A stretch of 64,000 bases of DNA from an uncultured Aquimarina sp. (GTDB lineage: Bacteria > Bacteroidota > Bacteroidia > Flavobacteriales > Flavobacteriaceae), in assembly GCA_947495425.1 (NCBI GenBank), contig CANLYR010000009.1, positions 62,001 to 126,000 on the forward strand. The letters are read 5' to 3'. Under the pieces are notes generated by a model, which saw only the letters and a list, made by a program, of their open reading frames with translations, was not told the origin of the DNA and ran no database searches. Every line of letters starts with the position of its first letter. Position 1 is the first letter of the stretch. The translations under genes were made by a program, and so were the position numbers. Shown here in pieces: positions 21,763 through 29,625 of the stretch.

Positions 21763-22665
21763 TTACCAGTCTTTATCTGTTTTCACTTTTGATCCTTGTG
21801 CTTTTTGTGCATTAATCTTATCCTGCACCTTCTTTTCTTCGTTATTCATGGCTTCGAGCAAGCTTTTTACCTGTTGAGGAGATAATTGGCCTTGCACTTG
21901 CTGTGGTTTTTGATCCTGCGGGGTGCCTTCTCCATCTTTTTGGTCGTCCTTCGGATCTTTTTTATCATCCTTAGCATCTCCTTTATCATCTTTCTCTTCG
22001 TCACCCTCATCCTTTTTCTCTTCTTCCTTGTCTTCCCCGTCTTTATTCTCTCCATCTTTTTTATCCTCTTCATTTTCTTTATCTCCCTCATCACCTTTTT
22101 TCTCTTCCTTATCGTCTCCTTCTTTCTGGTCTTTATTATCCTGTTGATCTTTGTTCTGGTCTTCATCCTGACCATCATCATCTTTATTTTGATCGTTTTT
22201 CTTTTCTTCTTCTTCCAACATTTTTTTTGCTAGTGCAAGATTATACCTAGTTTCTTCGTCTCTGGTATTATTACGCAAAGCGTTTTTGTAAGCTTCGACC
22301 GCTTCTTTATATTTTTTTTGCTCCATAAAGGTATTCCCCTGATTATGGAACGCTTTGTGTTTTTCTGATTTAGAAGTTGCTACTTTTACAGCATCTGCAT
22401 AGCGCTGTGTAGCTTCATCATATTTTTCTGACGTATAATATGCGTTGGCAAGATTATATTTTGCTGTTGTGCTTGCTGGATTTTTTGCGATAGCCTTCCT
22501 ATATTCTCCTTCAGCTTTGGGGAAATTACCATCTTGTACTAATACATCATTTCCTGTAGCAACAAATTGTTTTGCCTCTAGAATAGCTTCTTCTCTATCT
22601 TTATTTTCTTGCGAAAACAGGAAACCAAAGTGTAAACAGCATATAACTACTAAAAAATGTTTCAT
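21763..22665 (-). CDS. batC: BatC: TPR protein with a long Asp/Glu/Lys tract
   Basis: A 300-residue protein with a signal peptide (KHFLVVICCLHFGFLFS), then TPR repeats at about 45-150 (ASTTAKYNLANAYYTSEKYD, HNQGNTFMEQKKYKEAVEAY, TRYNLALAKKMLEEEE). Residues ~155-250 are almost only Asp, Glu, Lys, Gln, Asn and Gly. The C-terminal segment is LSPQQVKSLLEAMNNEEKKV. This is BatC, placed between batB and batD as usual. The charged tract is low-complexity and probably disordered. It also creates long unreal reading frames in other frames. Confidence 0.87.
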   Translation of the reverse strand: MKHFLVVICCLHFGFLFSQENKDREEAILEAKQFVATGNDVLVQDGNFPKAEGEYRKAIAKNPASTTAKYNLANAYYTSEKYDEATQRYADAVKVATSKSEKHKAFHNQGNTFMEQKKYKEAVEAYKNALRNNTRDEETRYNLALAKKMLEEEEKKNDQNKDDDGQDEDQNKDQQDNKDQKEGDDKEEKKGDEGDKENEEDKKDGENKDGEDKEEEKKDEGDEEKDDKGDAKDDKKDPKDDQKDGEGTPQDQKPQQVQGQLSPQQVKSLLEAMNNEEKKVQDKINAQKAQGSKVKTDKDW

Positions 22666-22682
22666 CCTATTGTATTATTTTC

Positions 22683-22697
22683 AACGTATTATACGTT
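22683..22697. repeat. Perfect short dyad in the batB-batC spacer
   Basis: AACGTAT-T-ATACGTT is a perfect 15-bp palindrome in the 52-nt spacer between batB and batC. It could be a binding site or a remnant of a dispersed repeat; nothing decides this. Confidence 0.3.
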
Positions 22698-22717
22698 TTA
22701 ATTCCTGGCTAAAAAAT

Positions 22718-23758
22718 TTAGCTAGACGCTTCGTTAAAAAGGTTTAGCTTTTTTACCCATGATGTTTTTCTGTCTAAAAAGAAAATGTCTAAAAACAGTA
22801 ATAACAATCCTGCTCCCAGAAACCATTGAAATTGATCTTTGAAATCTGCAAATTGCTTTGCTTCAAATTCTTTTTTATCCATGTTTTGTAAAATGGTCGT
22901 TACCTCTTCTACAACTTTATTTGTATTTCTACCATCAATGTATGTGCCATTTGCTTCATTGGCAATTTCCTGTAAAGTTGTCGGGTTTAATTTTGTAATT
23001 ACTGTAGCACCCTGACTATCTTTCTTGTAACGCTCTATAATACCATTCCTTTTGATAGGAATGGGCGCTCCTTTTTCGGATCCTACTCCTATGGTAAAGA
23101 TTTTTATTCCTTCTTCTGAAGCTTCTTCTGCTATTGCCTTTACGTTACCTTGATGATCTTCGCCATCACTAACAATAAACAGCACTCGATTGGTTTGTTC
23201 TTCGTCGTTGTAATATGTTTTTGCTAACTCTATAGCTTCATAGATTGCGGTTCCCTGAGAAGAAAGCATGTCGGTATTCATGGATTGAAGGAACATTTTT
23301 CCTGAAGCATAATCTGTAGTGATAGGCAACTGCGGAAAAGCACTGGCAGCGTAGGCTATAATTCCTATACGGTCACTTGCCAGGTTATTAATAATTTGTG
23401 TGATCAATTGTTTTGACTTTTCTATCCTATTTGGTGCTATGTCTTCTGCCAACATACTTTTGGATACATCTACCGCAAATACCACATCCACTCCTTCACG
23501 TTTTACGGTTTCGAGCTTTGTACCAATCTTAGGGTTTACCAAAGCTACTATTAAACACCCCAAAGCTAAACTGATCACGAATATCTTTAAAATCGATTTA
23601 AATATCGATTGATCTGGGCTTAGTTTTTTTAGCAATTGCACATCTGCAAATTTTTTCTGAGTTGTTTTTTTCCAAAGCAATACTCCTAAAAATAACACCA
23701 CTAGGATGGGAATCCCCAATAGCAACCAGAAATATATTTTTTCTTCTAATAAGTACAT
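22718..23758 (-). CDS. batB: BatB: von Willebrand factor A membrane protein
   Basis: A 346-residue protein with transmembrane helices at about 9-29, 58-78 and 310-330 around a VWA domain. The MIDAS metal site begins with DVVFAVDVSKSMLAEDI (DxSxS at ~91-95) and continues with Asp in FIVSDGEDHQGNV. VWA domains bind partner proteins through a divalent metal. BatA and BatB are thought to act together in the inner membrane with the MoxR ATPase. It follows batA after an unusually long spacer of 195 nt. Confidence 0.92.
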   Translation of the reverse strand: MYLLEEKIYFWLLLGIPILVVLFLGVLLWKKTTQKKFADVQLLKKLSPDQSIFKSILKIFVISLALGCLIVALVNPKIGTKLETVKREGVDVVFAVDVSKSMLAEDIAPNRIEKSKQLITQIINNLASDRIGIIAYAASAFPQLPITTDYASGKMFLQSMNTDMLSSQGTAIYEAIELAKTYYNDEEQTNRVLFIVSDGEDHQGNVKAIAEEASEEGIKIFTIGVGSEKGAPIPIKRNGIIERYKKDSQGATVITKLNPTTLQEIANEANGTYIDGRNTNKVVEEVTTILQNMDKKEFEAKQFADFKDQFQWFLGAGLLLLFLDIFFLDRKTSWVKKLNLFNEASS

Positions 23759-23764
23759 TAATTA

Positions 23765-23799
23765 AGTCAATAGTTTTTAGTCGTTAGTCAATAGTTTTG
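23765..23799. repeat. Heptamer tandem array in the batA-batB spacer
   Basis: Five adjacent 7-bp units: AGTCAAT, AGTTTTT, AGTCGTT, AGTCAAT, AGTTTTG. AGT is fixed at the start of each unit while the other positions vary. It sits immediately upstream of batB (start 23758). Confidence 0.6.
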
Positions 23800-23826
23800 T
23801 CAATGAAATCTCTGTATTTGTCGATA

Positions 23827-23949
23827 TCAGTAATCATAGTGACCCATATCTTTTTTATAAAGATCTTTAATCTCTTTGAGATAAGAAACCGCTGTAAAAG
23901 TATCTCCTTTGCTTCTTGAACTTCCAAATATGATAATTCCTTTATTCAA
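23827..23949 (-). pseudogene. Possible stump of a flavodoxin-fold NAD(P)H/FMN reductase
   Basis: A 40-residue minus-strand frame (TTG start or read-in from upstream) gives NKGIIIFGSSRSKGDTFTAV, which looks like the first strand and FMN-phosphate loop (GSSRxxGxT) of NADPH-dependent FMN reductases, then KEIKDLYKKDMGHYDY, similar to the next family segment. It stops at TGA 23827-23829 and only broken fragments follow. It lies wholly inside the spacer between batA and batB. The match is short and made by eye, so this is tentative. Confidence 0.35.
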
Positions 23950-23953
23950 ATCT

Positions 23954-24958
23954 TTATATAAAACTTCTAAATACGGTATATCTTAATAAAAACTCTACAA
24001 AAATCAAGACTACGGCAAGCAATATCAATACTCTAAACTTTTCTTCATAATTATAGAATTTAAACTCTTCGATATCTGTCTTTTCTAATTTATCAATTTC
24101 TTGATAGATCTGTTGTAATTTTTTGTTATTTGTTGCTCTAAAATACTTTCCTCCCGTAGCTTTTGCAATTTCCTTGAGTAAGTCTTCATCAATTTCTACC
24201 TGGACCCTACCATACTGAAAAGAACCATTAGGTAAAATTGCTACTGGGGCTAATGCCATACCGTTTGTTCCCAAACCAATAGTATATGTTTTTATACCAT
24301 ATTCTACTGCCAATTCTGAAGCGATCTTAGGGTCTATAAACCCTGCATTATTAGAACCGTCGGTAAGCAAAATAATGACCTTGCTTTTCGCTTTGCTATC
24401 TTTAAGTCGGTTTACCGAAGTTGCCAATCCCATACCAATAGCAGTACCATTCTCCAATACATTATCATATTTTACATCTTTCATGCTACTCAAAACAATT
24501 GATTTATCGCTTGTGATCGGTGTTTTGGTAAAGCTTTCTCCCGCATAGACCACCAAGCCAATGCGATCGTTTGCTCTGTCTTTAATAAATTCTGCAGCTA
24601 CATCTTTTAAGGCTTCTAAACGATTAGGCTTGAGGTCTTTTGCTAACATACTGGCAGAAACATCGATTGCCATAACAATATCTATCCCCTTAGTGGTTTT
24701 GGTTTTTGTAGAAACATCTACAGTTCTAGGTCTTGCCAAGGCCGTTATGATTAGTGATAACGCAATAAGCCGTAATATTAATAAAACTGGTTTTAGTTTT
24801 GTTAACCAACTACCAGAAACCTTAAATCCTTTGATACTAGAAATCTTTAAGGCAGCTTGTTGTTTATTTCGTTTCCATATGTACCAGGCAATTGCTATTG
24901 GTAGTAATAAAAACAACCAAAAAAACTGTGGGTCTTCAAATGTGAAATTTTCAAACAT
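23954..24958 (-). CDS. batA: BatA: von Willebrand factor A membrane protein
   Basis: A 334-residue protein with transmembrane helices at about 12-28, 57-76 and 308-328 and a VWA domain between. The MIDAS motif is DIVMAIDVSASMLAKDL (~92-108), followed by FTKTPITSDKS and ILLTDGSNNAGF. Its start overlaps the stop of the preceding gene by one base (TAATG), so translation is coupled. It is a core member of the bat operon, acting in the inner membrane. Confidence 0.92.
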   Translation of the reverse strand: MFENFTFEDPQFFWLFLLLPIAIAWYIWKRNKQQAALKISSIKGFKVSGSWLTKLKPVLLILRLIALSLIITALARPRTVDVSTKTKTTKGIDIVMAIDVSASMLAKDLKPNRLEALKDVAAEFIKDRANDRIGLVVYAGESFTKTPITSDKSIVLSSMKDVKYDNVLENGTAIGMGLATSVNRLKDSKAKSKVIILLTDGSNNAGFIDPKIASELAVEYGIKTYTIGLGTNGMALAPVAILPNGSFQYGRVQVEIDEDLLKEIAKATGGKYFRATNNKKLQQIYQEIDKLEKTDIEEFKFYNYEEKFRVLILLAVVLIFVEFLLRYTVFRSFI

Positions 24959-26556
24959 TATTTTTCGGCATTTTTAAGTTCTACAGAATTAAGGATACGT
25001 TGTGCTATATCTTTTGCATAGCGATCTTGGGTATCATAAACGATTGTAATCTGCTGAAAACCTCCTGCTTCTGCAAAATTGAGCATGAGATATTCATTTT
25101 TTTGCTTCTTTTTGGTCACAGGATTAATGACTTCTAAGCTTCCAAATACTTTAACCCCTTTTGCTCCTGCCAGGGTTTCATATTCTTCATCTTTTACAGA
25201 AATATTTTTTGCTCCCTGCGCTTCAAAAGTGGCAACAACACCATCAACTACTTTATCTAATGGTACCTTGGTGGGTTTATTATATTGTAGTGTAGAAACA
25301 TATACATAAAAGTTACCAATCAAGCTTCCGTACACAAAAGTTTCATTTCCTTTGAGCACCTGTTTTTGTTCTTCGCTAATTTGATATGCATTACGAATCA
25401 ACACTTTTGGAGTAGAAACTGTGACTGGTGGCGAACCATAAGCACTAGAAATCCATTCGGTTTCTGCTAGTTCTTTGGTAGGATGACCCAAGATGGTGTC
25501 TTTTACCACATCATATCCTTTTATCATAATAAAGATGCCGAGTGTGATCCCAATAACACCTACCCCTGCAATACTCCCAAAAATGATATATCTCTTTTTT
25601 CTCTTTTCTGCAACTTCTTTTCTATACTCTTCATCAGCTAATAATTCCTCTTCGGTAGGTTCTGGGATTGCACTTTTTGTTTTATGAATTACCTGCTCAA
25701 TTACATTACGGTCTGCTCTTGCTGTTAGGATATCGGGTTTGGATTTGGCGAACTTAGCCATATCGGCAGTTTTTAAAACACTCTTAAGTTCTTCAACCGT
25801 AGCTTTATCCAGATTCAGACTACCGGATTTTATTTCTTCATCTAATCGCGCAATCAACTCATCGGTGGTACTTTCCATAGCATGATCATACACTTCTTCA
25901 TCGATATATTTACGCGCTGTATCACTTAATTGAGAATAATACTCTTTATGCGAGTCTTTTTCTAACAAATGGGACTCATCGATTTTTTGGAGTGCTAATA
26001 TTGCTCTTTCATATGGTGGGAGCTCATTTTTTTTGGCTTCTTTTCGCTTTTTCCTTCTAAAAAGTAAAAAAACAATTACTCCTATAATAAGTAGTGGTAT
26101 TCCTATCCATAACATCCATTTTTTCCAATTAAAAGGAAATGCAACCTCTACATTTTCTAAAGGTTTAATCTGATACATTTTCTGCTTCAGCGTATCTACC
26201 AATACATCTCTAATTTCAACCTTAAGAGAATCTGTGAACAGTATCTGATCTCCTACCATCACTTTTTGTCTTGGTATGGTGTACGATCCAGAATCAAACT
26301 GGGTCAACGCATATTCTTTTGTAAGGCGTAATCGATTTTCATCTTTTGTAGTGTCAATTTTAAAAGATTCAATTACCTCTAAAGGTGTAAATGTTTTTCC
26401 TTCCGGAAATATAACGATTTGGGTATCATCTGCCTCGACCTGCATTTTGTATCGAATCTCTGCTCCGATTTTAACAGTGGTAGAGTCGACCGTAGCGGAA
26501 ACCTGTGCGAAGTTATATTGACTTATCATCAGAAAGAAGAACATTCTTAAAAACAT
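24958..26556 (-). CDS. BatD-like two-helix membrane protein of the bat operon
   Basis: The start chosen at 26556 (MFLRMFFFLMISQYNFAQ) gives a signal peptide and 532 residues. An in-frame Met at 26625 would add 23 residues coded by a palindromic and heptamer repeat, so it is not preferred. Residues ~18-140 are a beta-rich periplasmic domain. A helix at ~147-166 (WMLWIGIPLLIIGVIVFLLF), a helical cytoplasmic domain, a second helix at ~325-346, and a C-terminal periplasmic domain follow. Proteins of this place and shape are usual between the DUF58 gene and batA in Flavobacteriia (DUF4381/BatD-like). Its function is unknown. Confidence 0.78.
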   Translation of the reverse strand: MFLRMFFFLMISQYNFAQVSATVDSTTVKIGAEIRYKMQVEADDTQIVIFPEGKTFTPLEVIESFKIDTTKDENRLRLTKEYALTQFDSGSYTIPRQKVMVGDQILFTDSLKVEIRDVLVDTLKQKMYQIKPLENVEVAFPFNWKKWMLWIGIPLLIIGVIVFLLFRRKKRKEAKKNELPPYERAILALQKIDESHLLEKDSHKEYYSQLSDTARKYIDEEVYDHAMESTTDELIARLDEEIKSGSLNLDKATVEELKSVLKTADMAKFAKSKPDILTARADRNVIEQVIHKTKSAIPEPTEEELLADEEYRKEVAEKRKKRYIIFGSIAGVGVIGITLGIFIMIKGYDVVKDTILGHPTKELAETEWISSAYGSPPVTVSTPKVLIRNAYQISEEQKQVLKGNETFVYGSLIGNFYVYVSTLQYNKPTKVPLDKVVDGVVATFEAQGAKNISVKDEEYETLAGAKGVKVFGSLEVINPVTKKKQKNEYLMLNFAEAGGFQQITIVYDTQDRYAKDIAQRILNSVELKNAEK

Positions 26557-26617
26557 CCCCCTAATCCCATTCAAAGGGGGAATAGAAAATCTTATATTCG
26601 TAATTTGTAATTCGTAA
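26557..26617. repeat. Palindromic repeat plus heptamer array before the BatD-like gene
   Basis: CCCCC (26557-26561) and GGGGG (26576-26580) bound a CCCCCTAATCCCATTC-type element, which resembles C-rich dispersed repeats I have seen in Bacteroidetes. Three exact-length 7-bp units follow at 26597-26617: TTCGTAA, TTTGTAA, TTCGTAA. The whole block lies between the DUF58 stop and the chosen start of the next gene. Confidence 0.55.
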
Positions 26618-26628
26618 TTCTTCATTTA

Positions 26629-27495
26629 CTATCCTCTTCGTTTAAAATAGCCCAGTAATTTTTTTACATAGCTTTCGTCAATTCGGCTACTTAATGAGCC
26701 TGCTCCGCTACGCGTAAAACTATCTTTAAAATAGTCAACCCGATCTTTGTAATATTTACTGTACTGTGATCGTGTCTTTTTTGAACCAGTATTAACCAAT
26801 AGAAGTTCTCCGGTTTCCTCATCTTCCATTTGTACCATCCCTAGATTAGGAATTTTTTCTTCTCGCCGATCATACACTCGTATTCCTGTTACATCATGCT
26901 TGCCACCCACAATTTTGAGGGTTTGCTGGTAACCATCTGCAATAAAATCTGAAAGAATAAAGACTATGGCTTTCTTTTTCATCACATTAGATAAGAATTT
27001 CAAAGCTTCTGTGATATTGGTTTCCTTACTTTTGGGTTCGAACTCCAACAGCTCTCTGATAATTCTAAGTACATGAGATCTTCCTTTTTTTGGCGGAATA
27101 AATAGTTCGATCTGATCTGTAAATAAAATCAACCCAATCTTATCATTATTTTGTGTAGCCGAGAATGCCAGCGTAGCAGCAATTTCGGTAATAATACCTT
27201 TCTTAAATTGTTGTTGTGTACCAAACATCTGAGAACCAGAAACATCAACCATTAGCATCATGGTAAGTTCTCGCTCTTCTTCGAATACTTTTATGTAGGG
27301 TTCATTATACCGTGCAGTCACATTCCAATCAATATTACGTACATCGTCTCCAAATTGATACTGTCGCACTTCACTAAAGGTCATCCCACGGCCTTTGAAG
27401 GTAGAATGATATTCTCCTCCAAAAATATGGTCACTTAAGCGACGTGTTTTAATTTCTATTTTTCGAACTTTTTTTAATAACTCTTTGGTATCCAT
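26629..27495 (-). CDS. DUF58 domain protein of the MoxR-Bat system
   Basis: A 288-residue cytoplasmic protein. It has the DUF58 signature YHSTFKGRGMTFSEVRQYQF followed by DDVRNIDWNVTARYNEPYIK, and a VWA-like core (ELTMMLMVDVSGSQMFGT, with AIVFILSDFIADGY). DUF58 proteins almost always follow moxR and are thought to link the AAA+ ATPase with the membrane VWA proteins. It starts 97 nt after the moxR stop, a spacer filled with heptamer repeats. Confidence 0.93.
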   Translation of the reverse strand: MDTKELLKKVRKIEIKTRRLSDHIFGGEYHSTFKGRGMTFSEVRQYQFGDDVRNIDWNVTARYNEPYIKVFEEERELTMMLMVDVSGSQMFGTQQQFKKGIITEIAATLAFSATQNNDKIGLILFTDQIELFIPPKKGRSHVLRIIRELLEFEPKSKETNITEALKFLSNVMKKKAIVFILSDFIADGYQQTLKIVGGKHDVTGIRVYDRREEKIPNLGMVQMEDEETGELLLVNTGSKKTRSQYSKYYKDRVDYFKDSFTRSGAGSLSSRIDESYVKKLLGYFKRRG

Positions 27496-27500
27496 TTTTT

Positions 27501-27535
27501 CAGTTTGCAGTTTGCAGTCTTCGGTTTGCAGTTAG
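27501..27535. repeat. Heptamer tandem array II (moxR-DUF58 spacer)
   Basis: Five adjacent 7-bp units: CAGTTTG, CAGTTTG, CAGTCTT, CGGTTTG, CAGTTAG. It lies 5 nt upstream of the DUF58 start codon. Confidence 0.65.
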
Positions 27536-27558
27536 GTTCTATCAATATTCAGAAAACA

Positions 27559-27593
27559 ACTGCCTACTGAACACTGATAACTTTTTACTGATT
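27559..27593. repeat. Heptamer tandem array I (moxR-DUF58 spacer)
   Basis: Five adjacent 7-bp units: ACTGCCT, ACTGAAC, ACTGATA, ACTTTTT, ACTGATT. ACT is fixed and G is nearly fixed, while the last two or three positions vary. The array ends at the moxR stop codon. Confidence 0.65.
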
Positions 27594-28594
27594 TATGGTA
27601 CTTCAATCTCGTTTACAATCTTATTGATAATATCTTCTGAGGTTACGTTTTCGGCTTCGGCTTCATAGGTGATTCCGATTCGATGACGTAATACATCATG
27701 AATGATAGCGCGTACATCTTCGGGAATTACGTATCCTCTTCTTTTAATAAATGCATAACACTTTGCCGCTGTGGCCAAGTTGATACTACCACGAGGTGAG
27801 GCTCCAAAGTTTATTAATGGTTTTAGTTCTTCTAATCCGTATTTTTCTGGATACCTTGTTGCAAAAATAATATCGAGGATATATTTTTCTATCTTTTCAT
27901 CCATATACACTTCTCTTACTGCTTTTTGAGCATTCAGAATCTGTTCAATAGACACTACGGGGTTAACTTTTTCAAAAGATCCTTTTAGATTAGCACGAAC
28001 AATTAATTGCTCTTCGTCTAGTTTTGGATAATCGATCACGGTTTTTAGCATAAAACGGTCCACCTGTGCTTCTGGTAATGGGTACGTTCCTTCTTGCTCT
28101 ACCGGGTTTTGCGTTGCCATTACTAAGAAAGGCTTATCTAATATGAAGGTTTCGTCACCAATTGTAACCTGCTTCTCCTGCATAGCTTCTAGCAAGGCAC
28201 TTTGTACTTTTGCCGGAGCACGATTAATCTCATCTGCTAATACGAAGTTGGCAAAAATAGGTCCTTTTTTAATTGAAAAATCATTTTCTTTCATATTAAA
28301 AATAAGCGTTCCTACTACATCGGCTGGCAGTAAGTCTGGCGTAAATTGAATCCGACTGAAACTACCATGAACAGCTTGAGACAATGTGTTGATCGCTAGC
28401 GTCTTTGCTAAACCCGGTACTCCTTCGAGTAGAATATGACCCTGCCCCAATAATCCGATAAGCAAACGCTCTACCATGTGTTTTTGACCTACAATTACCT
28501 TGTTCATCTCCATGACTAATAGATCTACAAAAGCAGATTCTTTTTCTATCTTCTGGTTAATTGAAGCAATATCAATAGCACTATTTTCTTCCAT
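27593..28594 (-). CDS. moxR: MoxR family AAA+ ATPase
   Basis: A 333-residue cytoplasmic AAA+ ATPase, first gene of the bat operon. Walker A is EGVPGLAKTLA (~57-67), Walker B is FVLADEINRAP, sensor 1 is MATQNPVEQEGTYPLPEAQ, and the arginine-finger/sensor 2 part follows (NFGASPRGSINL). MoxR ATPases act as chaperone-like remodelers with VWA proteins. No exact TAnnTTTG element was found in the 278-nt spacer toward the divergent SDR gene. Confidence 0.95.
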   Translation of the reverse strand: MEENSAIDIASINQKIEKESAFVDLLVMEMNKVIVGQKHMVERLLIGLLGQGHILLEGVPGLAKTLAINTLSQAVHGSFSRIQFTPDLLPADVVGTLIFNMKENDFSIKKGPIFANFVLADEINRAPAKVQSALLEAMQEKQVTIGDETFILDKPFLVMATQNPVEQEGTYPLPEAQVDRFMLKTVIDYPKLDEEQLIVRANLKGSFEKVNPVVSIEQILNAQKAVREVYMDEKIEKYILDIIFATRYPEKYGLEELKPLINFGASPRGSINLATAAKCYAFIKRRGYVIPEDVRAIIHDVLRHRIGITYEAEAENVTSEDIINKIVNEIEVP

Positions 28595-28872
28595 CTATTT
28601 TAATTTTTTAAAGCCGTGAATTTACTATTCATAATTAAAGATTGCAAATTGTCGAAATAATTTTCGCGCCGTTGTTAATTCTTGGTTAAATGTACCTTTA
28701 TAAAAGATATTAAAACATAAATTTTGAAGTATATTTAATCACTTTTACAAAAAACCAGACATAACAACGCTCATCATTTTCATGATGAGTATTTCAAAAG
28801 ACGAAATACATTGGTTCGTGTTGCAATTTTTAAGAAATAATAATGACACCAACCCAATAATTATTAAGGCAT

Positions 28873-29625
28873 ATGAAAACAGCACTAATTACAGGAGCTA
28901 CTAGTGGGATTGGAAAATTTACCGCAATAGAACTAGCCAAGCATAATATAAACTTAATTCTTTGCGGAAGAAGGCAAGAACGATTAGATGAATTACAAAA
29001 CGAATTAGGTAAAATAGTCAACGTGCACACACTTTGTTTTGATGTTAGAGATAAAGACAAAGTTTTTGATGCGATTGAAAGTCTTACTGATACATTTGCC
29101 CAAATCGATATTCTTATCAATAATGCAGGAAATGCTCATGGATTGGATCCTATACAAACTGGAGATTTAGAAGATTGGGATGCTATGATGGATATTAATG
29201 TAAAAGGATTATTGTATGTTTCTAAAGCCATACTGCCAAAAATGATAGCACAACAATCAGGACACATCATTAATATAGGCTCTATTGCGGGAAAAGAAGT
29301 GTACCCAAATGGTAACATTTATTGTGCCAGCAAGCACGCAGTTGATGCGATAAACAAAGGGATGCGTATTGATCTTAATCCACACGGTATCAGAGTAGGT
29401 GCTATTCATCCTGGACTGGTAGAAACCGAATTTAGTAAGGTACGTTTCAAAAATGATGATAAGCGAGCAGATAATGTGTATAAAGGTTACGACCCATTAA
29501 TGCCAGAAGATATAGCAGACATTATTGCGTTTGTAGTCACAAGACCGTATCATGTAAATATCGCAGATCTCATTGTACTCCCAACAGCCCAGGCAAGCGC
29601 CACCGTTTTGAATAAGAAATCGTAA
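28873..29625 (+). CDS. SDR family NAD(P)-dependent oxidoreductase (YdfG-like)
   Basis: A 250-residue classical short-chain dehydrogenase. It has the cofactor motif TGATSGIGK (~7-15), NNAGN (~85-89), the Ser of INIGSIAG and the catalytic YCASK (Tyr~152, Lys~156). The whole resembles E. coli YdfG, an NADP+-dependent 3-hydroxy acid/L-allo-threonine dehydrogenase. The natural substrate here cannot be read from the sequence. It is divergent from moxR and followed by 150 nt without a gene. Confidence 0.92.
   Translation: MKTALITGATSGIGKFTAIELAKHNINLILCGRRQERLDELQNELGKIVNVHTLCFDVRDKDKVFDAIESLTDTFAQIDILINNAGNAHGLDPIQTGDLEDWDAMMDINVKGLLYVSKAILPKMIAQQSGHIINIGSIAGKEVYPNGNIYCASKHAVDAINKGMRIDLNPHGIRVGAIHPGLVETEFSKVRFKNDDKRADNVYKGYDPLMPEDIADIIAFVVTRPYHVNIADLIVLPTAQASATVLNKKS

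Follow-up and report, generated by a model that had tools for sequence, protein, structure and literature searches.

A degenerate-heptad hairpin between moxR and the DUF58 gene of an Aquimarina bat operon as a probable gene-less form of an element resembling 23S rRNA intervening sequences

The bat operon in a 64,000-nt stretch of an Aquimarina genome (the window, G000:C9:62001-126000; G000 is our code for this genome) carries four short arrays of degenerate 7-bp units, which raises the question of what these arrays are. The operon is encoded on the minus strand in the order moxR, DUF58 gene, batD, batA and batB. The coordinates reported for the arrays in the original prediction agreed letter for letter with the window in all four cases; array 4 indeed abuts the moxR stop, and two arrays lie close to start codons, array 1 ending 6 nt before batB and array 3 ending 5 nt before the DUF58 gene. 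Arrays 1, 3 and 4 were also correctly assigned to spacers of the operon, whereas array 2 lies inside the batD open reading frame (ORF). The claim that each array has a different core was wrong, since arrays 1, 3 and 4 have ACT(G)/(C)AGT in common, with array 3 inverted relative to array 4, and these two, listed as separate repeats, jointly make up one predicted hairpin. We propose, with a probability of about 0.6, that this hairpin is the gene-less ("solo") form of an element of mRNA operon spacers that resembles an intervening sequence (IVS) of 23S rRNA and whose full-length copies would enclose a gene of PF05635, the family of the 23S rRNA intervening-sequence protein (S23/IVP).

The moxR-DUF58 spacer folded with a minimum free energy of -30.3 kcal/mol (z -6.5), a value as low as which was found in 0 of 100 dinucleotide shuffles. 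In the predicted fold, arrays 3 and 4 pair with each other as the two arms of a single imperfect stem-loop that fills the intercistronic spacer, with the terminal inverted repeats and the long stem expected of an IVS. The stem consists of helices of 2-7 pairs, between which lie symmetric internal loops of 1-4 nt, and this layout would largely explain which heptad positions are fixed and which vary. An intrinsic terminator was ruled out, as the stem is followed on the coding strand by AAAAAATG, a run of A and not of T. A search of window positions 22000-29500 against 4227 Rfam models gave no match at E <= 1.

The strength of the 7-nt signal was then assessed in the window and in the rest of the genome. 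Tandem Repeats Finder detected arrays 2 and 3 (26596-26620, score 43; 27497-27533, score 46), and scanning the 64-kb window for lag-7 segments returned two, compared with a mean of 0.0 in five shuffles. Simple unit-match counts at lag 7 were masked by A/T runs and were replaced by a score corrected with other lags. When 464 kb were scanned with 35-base windows, prominent values came from arrays 3 and 4 (excess 0.54 and 0.41), and five matches reached the threshold of 0.40 compared with 0.6 in shuffles; array 1 alone was weak, its excess of 0.36 being close to the level of shuffled spacers (8 matches vs 2.6 at 0.35). An 864-kb sample (40 stretches of the genome and the window) yielded 14 matches in 338 codirectional spacers vs 3.5 after shuffling (28-base windows, threshold 0.40), and no excess in divergent (0 vs 0.8, n = 86) or convergent spacers (1 vs 1.2, n = 62). 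A period of 11 was in excess in codirectional spacers as well (7 vs 0.5; 35-base windows, threshold 0.38). Pooled autocorrelation showed no lag-7 signal in 192 other codirectional spacers of 40-200 nt (z 0.6), which indicates that the pattern is confined to few spacers; the value for 33 divergent spacers was z 2.6. The scan for 7-bp periodicity against shuffled spacers, suggested in the original prediction, thus revealed an excess between codirectional genes, but one that involves few of them. Among 194 ranked spacers, moxR-DUF58 was first and batA-batB, which holds array 1, was 63rd. Other 7-nt spacers of the genome were found at sdhA-sdhB, a pair identified by its domains, and in clusters that include genes similar to those of enoyl-CoA hydratase and hydroxyacyl-CoA dehydrogenase (assigned by eye from translations).

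For the comparison with Aquimarina and close kin, we assembled this locus and 46 others in which the operon retains both moxR and the DUF58 gene (n = 47). A 47th match (L054; L codes denote loci) was left out for want of these genes, three of the 46 have no Aquimarina label (L016, L049, L051), and the spacer of L037, trimmed by 42 nt at its 5' end where the moxR match ended early, was omitted from one flank comparison. The pooled lag-7 autocorrelation was 0.434 (z 21.3), with harmonics at 14 and 21 and smaller peaks at lags 8, 15 and 22, so that the proposed comparison of bat spacers in close relatives recovers the period across the 47 loci. Spacer length had a median of 90 nt and a middle half of 84-96 nt. 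Folding was stronger than in shuffles, with a mean z of -2.52 and 28 of 47 spacers at or below -2, as compared with a coding control (mean -0.26; 20 of 282). Grouping by BLAST gave families of 18, 8, 5, 4, 3 and 2 spacers and seven singletons, the latter counted as separate states on the gene tree. This tree, a quick one with 12 of 44 inner branches open, implied at least 24 changes of spacer family compared with a mean of 27.4 for shuffled labels, and the families are therefore only slightly clustered on it. Some changes occurred between very close species (L013/L043 vs L008/L017) with no trace in the flanks. A search for recombination tracts found the spacer-adjacent flanks not clearly more similar in pairs of the same family; the swaps thus look limited to the spacer. 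Donor copies of families B and E were sought in 12 genomes, which held only short partial matches besides the moxR-DUF58 site, and the window spacer had no donor copy elsewhere in its own genome. Judged by these comparisons, the sequence of the moxR-DUF58 spacer has been replaced repeatedly while the 7-nt period stays. In the alignment of family A, 94.7% of cells were paired, compared with 23-52% when the arms were slid; the paired cores were conserved and the loops variable, and changes on both sides were seen in 4 cells vs 0.6 in shuffles.

These data bear directly on the possibility that the hairpin belongs to the host, its stem setting the ratio of MoxR to Bat proteins through translational coupling or through protection or processing of the mRNA, with the sequence free to turn over provided that the stem remains. 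In the coupling version, a ribosome that finishes moxR would open the 5' arm, and the A-rich 3' arm upstream of the DUF58 start would become free. The fold tendency and the length of the spacer do outlast the sequence changes, cyanobacterial heptad hairpins have been proposed to act in transcript stability or translation coupling (accessible text of PMC2670836), and conserved stem-loops are described at processing sites of nif mRNA in the available part of PMC4284476. However, the fold bridging the moxR stop to the DUF58 start was weak, the distance through the fold being barely below that in shuffles (13.5 vs 15.7), similar elements occur in unrelated operons, and many genera show no significant period, as set out below. 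We consider a host regulatory hairpin unlikely.

We extended the analysis to 60 genomes with one genus code each, all 60 of which held homologues of the DUF58 protein, and examined moxR-DUF58 in 49 genera besides our own. Neither the autocorrelation nor the PF05635-count test included the two spacers longer than 200 nt (L181, L185). Pooled over the remaining 47 genera, whose spacers measure 40-200 nt, the autocorrelation at lag 7 was 0.392 (z 15.2), with z 11.3 at lag 14 and z 6.8 at lag 21. Taken singly, 24 of the 47 were significantly periodic; the 23 that were not, among them 9 of the 12 PF05635-negative genera, argue against a hairpin kept for a host function. The CAGT/ACTG hairpin itself was recognised by eye in several genera (e.g. 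L138, L140, L143, L153, L157, L164), and in the genus coded G014 the moxR-DUF58 spacer holds a PF05635 gene between inverted arms (46 vs 30.8). In the excluded L185 spacer (264 nt), heptads of the form TAAAAGA/TAAAAGG lie to one side, and a small unrelated ORF was recognised by eye within the spacer. A hairpin of GTCATTC...GAATGAC type without heptads was seen at L015, L028, L040, L141 and L170, in Aquimarina and (by eye) in other genera, and the site thus appears to be used by other hairpin elements too.

The connection with PF05635 was assessed in Flavobacteriaceae at 30 loci, one per genome, drawn from the 43 positive genomes of the 60. The flanks of these genes showed strong 7-nt periodicity (lag-7 z 12.0 and 9.2), which was absent from controls 0.8-0.9 kb away (z -1.9 and -0.6) and from the flanks of 114 other small ORFs (z -1.0 and -0.2). 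The left flank fitted the locus's own inverted right flank better than those of other loci in 25 of 30 cases (35.1 vs 24.4), and the PF05635 gene was codirectional with both neighbours in 29 of 30, with the orientation of the neighbours taken from the longest open frame to either side. In this genome, an 82-aa ORF adjoining heptad arrays (L063:4494-4742) matched PF05635 at 37.5 bits (cut-off 33.8), and another PF05635 gene (G000:C8:128392-128709) is flanked by CAGT and ACTG stretches. Several of the loci L218, L223, L225, L226, L230 and L232 (also L216 and L228) share seemingly the same PF05635 neighbours, with a thiolase-like gene to the right (by eye), as would result from repeated insertion at one site or from an old insertion.

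The sdhA-sdhB spacer presents the different states at one site. Across 30 loci, including our own, its length was 4-25 nt in 13, 53-117 nt in 12 and 387-499 nt in 5; twelve spacers of 25-117 nt from other genera gave a lag-7 z of 10.4, and three of the five long spacers coincided with PF05635 matches. Genomes G056 and G063 have a PF05635 match adjoining sdhB. The arms were clearly inverted in four of the five sdh PF05635 copies, with G056 as the exception. The suggestion that the arrays are insertion scars gains from this spacer insofar as it is short, hairpin-filled or filled by hairpin and gene according to genus. At L202 and L204, the sdhA-sdhB spacer holds a different, membrane-protein-like ORF (by eye) in place of PF05635.

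The association was also present at the level of genomes. Four CAGT heptads, the pattern counted in 249 Flavobacteriaceae genomes (per-genome counts were whole, and genomes without a match were partly assigned by elimination), occurred in 106, namely in 103 of 201 PF05635-positive and 3 of 48 PF05635-negative genomes (odds ratio 15.8, p 1.2e-9, kinship ignored). The difference persisted in genomes of at least 3.0 Mb (92 of 173 vs 3 of 25) and in those below 3.0 Mb (11 of 28 vs 0 of 23). A control mobile family, PF01797 (Y1 transposase, REP/RAYT), gave an odds ratio of 1.6 (p 0.07) in the 249 genomes and 4.7 (p 0.044) in those below 3.0 Mb. The reversed control pattern occurred in 47 of the 249 genomes (hand count), 46 of 201 positive vs 1 of 48 negative (odds ratio 13.9, p 0.0003), and is probably another heptad core and no null. 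At moxR-DUF58, the genera with significant periodicity numbered 21 of the 35 with PF05635 and 3 of the 12 that lack it (p 0.049 by Fisher test and 0.052 by Mann-Whitney test), and periodicity correlated with PF05635 copy number (rank correlation 0.40, p 0.005).

A neutral origin would have 7-nt polymerase slippage build the arrays and quasi-palindrome template switching supply the inverted copies, both tolerated in spacers. Length change by whole heptads is visible, the L032 spacer being 21 nt (three heptads' worth) shorter than that of its sister L031, and, as told in the accessible text of PMC4679880, heptanucleotide repeats were the commonest class in most genomes surveyed by Mrazek et al. 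2007, with slippage proposed. Such an origin, however, fails to predict that arrays surround PF05635 genes, that codirectional spacers are preferred or that the arrays depend on the presence of PF05635, and we regard it as improbable. The earlier suggestion of slippage products is supported as the way in which arrays change length.

The same arrangement was found in cyanobacteria, where we analysed 14 of 27 plasmid records labelled "four helix bundle protein" or "S23 ribosomal protein", some of them near relatives with similar flanks (L265, L270, L274, L275). The heptad flanks gave z 14.7 and 14.2, and the inverted fit was above that with other loci in 13 of 14. Examples of facing arms are AGTAGGG and CCCTACT, or AGGGAAC and GTTCCCT; L262 has a nearly identical heptad in the same orientation on both sides. 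Four-helix-bundle genes with heptad-like flanks lie between cas6 and cas4 on two of the plasmids (L262, L267) and between cas10 and a Cmr3-family gene on a third (L269). By description, the plasmid heptads look like the short tandemly repeated repetitive (STRR) sequences of the literature.

In the proposed element, two inverted arrays of degenerate heptads would form a long stem with about one internal loop per heptad, and in full-length copies they would enclose the PF05635 gene; solo and gene-bearing copies would be of one kind. RNase III may cut the stem as it does in rRNA IVSs, which between two cistrons would do little harm. Heptads would be gained and lost by slippage, with pairing kept because any shift by 7 restores the register. 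The element would be mobile, and the PF05635 protein might act in trans on solo copies, much as RAYT proteins act on repetitive extragenic palindromic (REP) sequences. That the heptad is the unit gripped by each subunit of a pentameric S23/IVP is pure speculation.

ORF-less IVSs of about 90 nt exist, for example in Salmonella. In the accessible text of PMC4990558, IVSs of 23S rRNA have terminal inverted repeats that form a long stem, may carry an S23 ORF in the loop, are part of the transcript and are excised by RNase III, and the S23/IVP proteins are described there as having no known function. The window hairpin shares the terminal inverted repeats and the long predicted stem, and other copies have the S23 ORF in the loop; it differs in lying in the spacer of a protein operon, in its arms of degenerate heptads and in its lack of an ORF. 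Because it does not lie in rRNA and has no ORF in the window copy, it is IVS-like in anatomy and is not a member of the rRNA IVSs. The comparison with STRR sequences drawn in the original prediction was apt, as cyanobacterial STRR heptanucleotides in operon spacers such as hupS-hupL are also described as forming hairpins, with their function called unknown in the available part of PMC2670836; the prediction missed how widely the family shares the period at this site, and also the link to PF05635. The window arrays are likewise tandem 7-bp units in an operon spacer that form a hairpin. Unlike the STRRs described from cyanobacteria, they belong to an Aquimarina host, as judged by the nearest relatives of the operon genes, and unlike the published ones, the Flavobacteriaceae arrays are tied to PF05635 by the flank and genome-wide tests. 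Two Nostoc csR1 elements beside the hyp operon, ttgtcagttgtcagttgtca and ccactgactactgac, comprise CAGT and ACTG heptads, and the part of PMC2408588 available reports no hairpin for either alone.

Direct repeats of TAACTGA occur in Beggiatoaceae, cyanobacteria and five Bacteroidetes, with an AACTG core and often ending just before a start codon (accessible text of PMC4679880). The window arrays are similar in being heptameric, in their core and in their proximity to starts. They differ in that the four arrays contain no exact TAACTGA/TCAGTTA tandem, and in having degenerate units and an inverted partner array. As suggested for the TAACTGA repeats, the arrays could be binding sites for a post-transcriptional regulator; arrays 1 and 3 end 5-6 nt before starts like most TAACTGA sets of the BOGUAY genome (same source). 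We hold this to be very improbable, given that one and the same site has different cores in different species, a variation hard to reconcile with a sequence-specific binder, and that the paired inverted arm is left unexplained. Costa et al. are said to have described, in the P6b stem of tRNA-Leu introns from Nostoc, degenerate heptanucleotide repeats, which resemble the window arrays in having heptads on both stem strands and in changing by slippage, and differ in sitting inside a group I intron. Our literature search, with most subscription journals outside its scope, found nothing among the matches listed that joins S23/four-helix-bundle proteins with intergenic or heptad repeats. A wider proposal, tentative and in our estimate somewhat short of even odds, is that the heptad arrays of cyanobacterial (STRR) and Flavobacteriia operon spacers are arms of one widespread, selfish "mRNA IVS" acting at the RNA level, which would insert between cotranscribed genes, be neutralised by stem cleavage and be spread by S23/IVP acting in trans on solo hairpins. 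Joining STRR-type repeats with S23/IVP gives each a testable partner: a genome with solo hairpins is expected to encode a PF05635 protein as well, and the gene of such a protein to be bordered by inverted heptads. If this is true, many operons hold a mobile intercistronic hairpin, and the processing of their mRNA may change.

Several results weigh against the reading of the bat hairpin as a solo IVS-like element. The window spacer has no PF05635 gene, and its arms match those of gene-bearing copies in the core alone. Its strong fold is not special, since codirectional spacers of 75-120 nt in this genome have a mean z of about -2.0 to -2.3 (many of the well-folded ones look terminator-like by eye and were excluded as members), and 25 batA-batB spacers fold too (mean z -1.68; 11 at or below -2). 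A sense-strand G-U bias was weak (61 vs 35, p 0.01; elsewhere 52 vs 47). Within Aquimarina, several spacers are hairpins without heptads (families D and E, L014, L020; family D is a hairpin of GTCATTCC type and that of L014 is G/C-rich), the consensus stem of family B has only five pairs, and family A showed fewer further pair types than its shuffles (6 vs 7.3). The 23 genera without a significant period count here too, as do the 3 of 12 PF05635-negative genera that are still periodic, and the genome and genus association tests all ignore shared descent. PF05635 flanks were also alike in direct orientation (30.9, compared with 35.1 inverted). Arms are weaker at the eight PF05635 copies of this genome (z 3.3 and 4.5), where the inverted fit exceeds that to others in seven but clearly so in just four; its CAGT/ACTG copy (L251) scored 25.5 vs 30.9, although near-complementary stretches are visible in the wider sequence, and its left neighbour is apparently on the other strand (by eye). 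Finally, 3 of the 14 cyanobacterial PF05635-type genes are antisense to both neighbours.

Table 1. Features of the bat operon region, in window positions.
Feature	Position	Strand	Basis
moxR (AAA_3 ATPase), upstream gene; stop touches array 4	27593..28594	-	ORF and domain search
Array 4, predicted 5' hairpin arm; coding strand reads as CAGT heptads	27559..27593	-	sequence and fold
Predicted intercistronic hairpin in the moxR-DUF58 spacer (spacer 27496-27592)	27500..27591	-	fold; coordinates converted by hand
Array 3, predicted 3' hairpin arm; coding strand reads as ACTG heptads	27501..27535	-	sequence and fold
DUF58 gene of the bat operon (PF01882)	26629..27495	-	ORF and domain search
Array 2, ATTACGA-type heptads in the 5' end of batD (peptide MKNYELQITN)	26597..26617	-	sequence, ORF
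batD (start 26625)	24958..26625	-	ORF; PF13584 at 22.0 bits, just below the cut-off of 24.1
Array 1, ACT-type heptads before the batB start; no clear partner arm	23765..23799	-	sequence, scans
batB (VWA), downstream of array 1	22718..23758	-	ORF and domain search

Arrays 1 and 2 are heptad arrays located at translation starts, and they may represent single arms or remnants. The place of array 2 gave a lag-7 z of 24.2 in the 47 Aquimarina and close-kin loci and of 5.9 in 29 other genera, with little fold signal at the batD start (mean z -0.63; 4 of 47 loci at or below -2). The batA-batB spacer (23759-23953, minus strand) contains a short remnant of a 169-aa ORF, which is intact in relatives (L030:8667-9176, PF03358 NADPH-dependent FMN reductase) and missing in others, where this spacer is 31-136 nt long. 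The 5' coding end of batD (26555-26580) carries a CCCCCTTTGAATGGGATTAGGGGG-type element common to several Aquimarina species, the remainder having other sequence there, and in L014 the two arms of the moxR-DUF58 hairpin consist of a related sequence.

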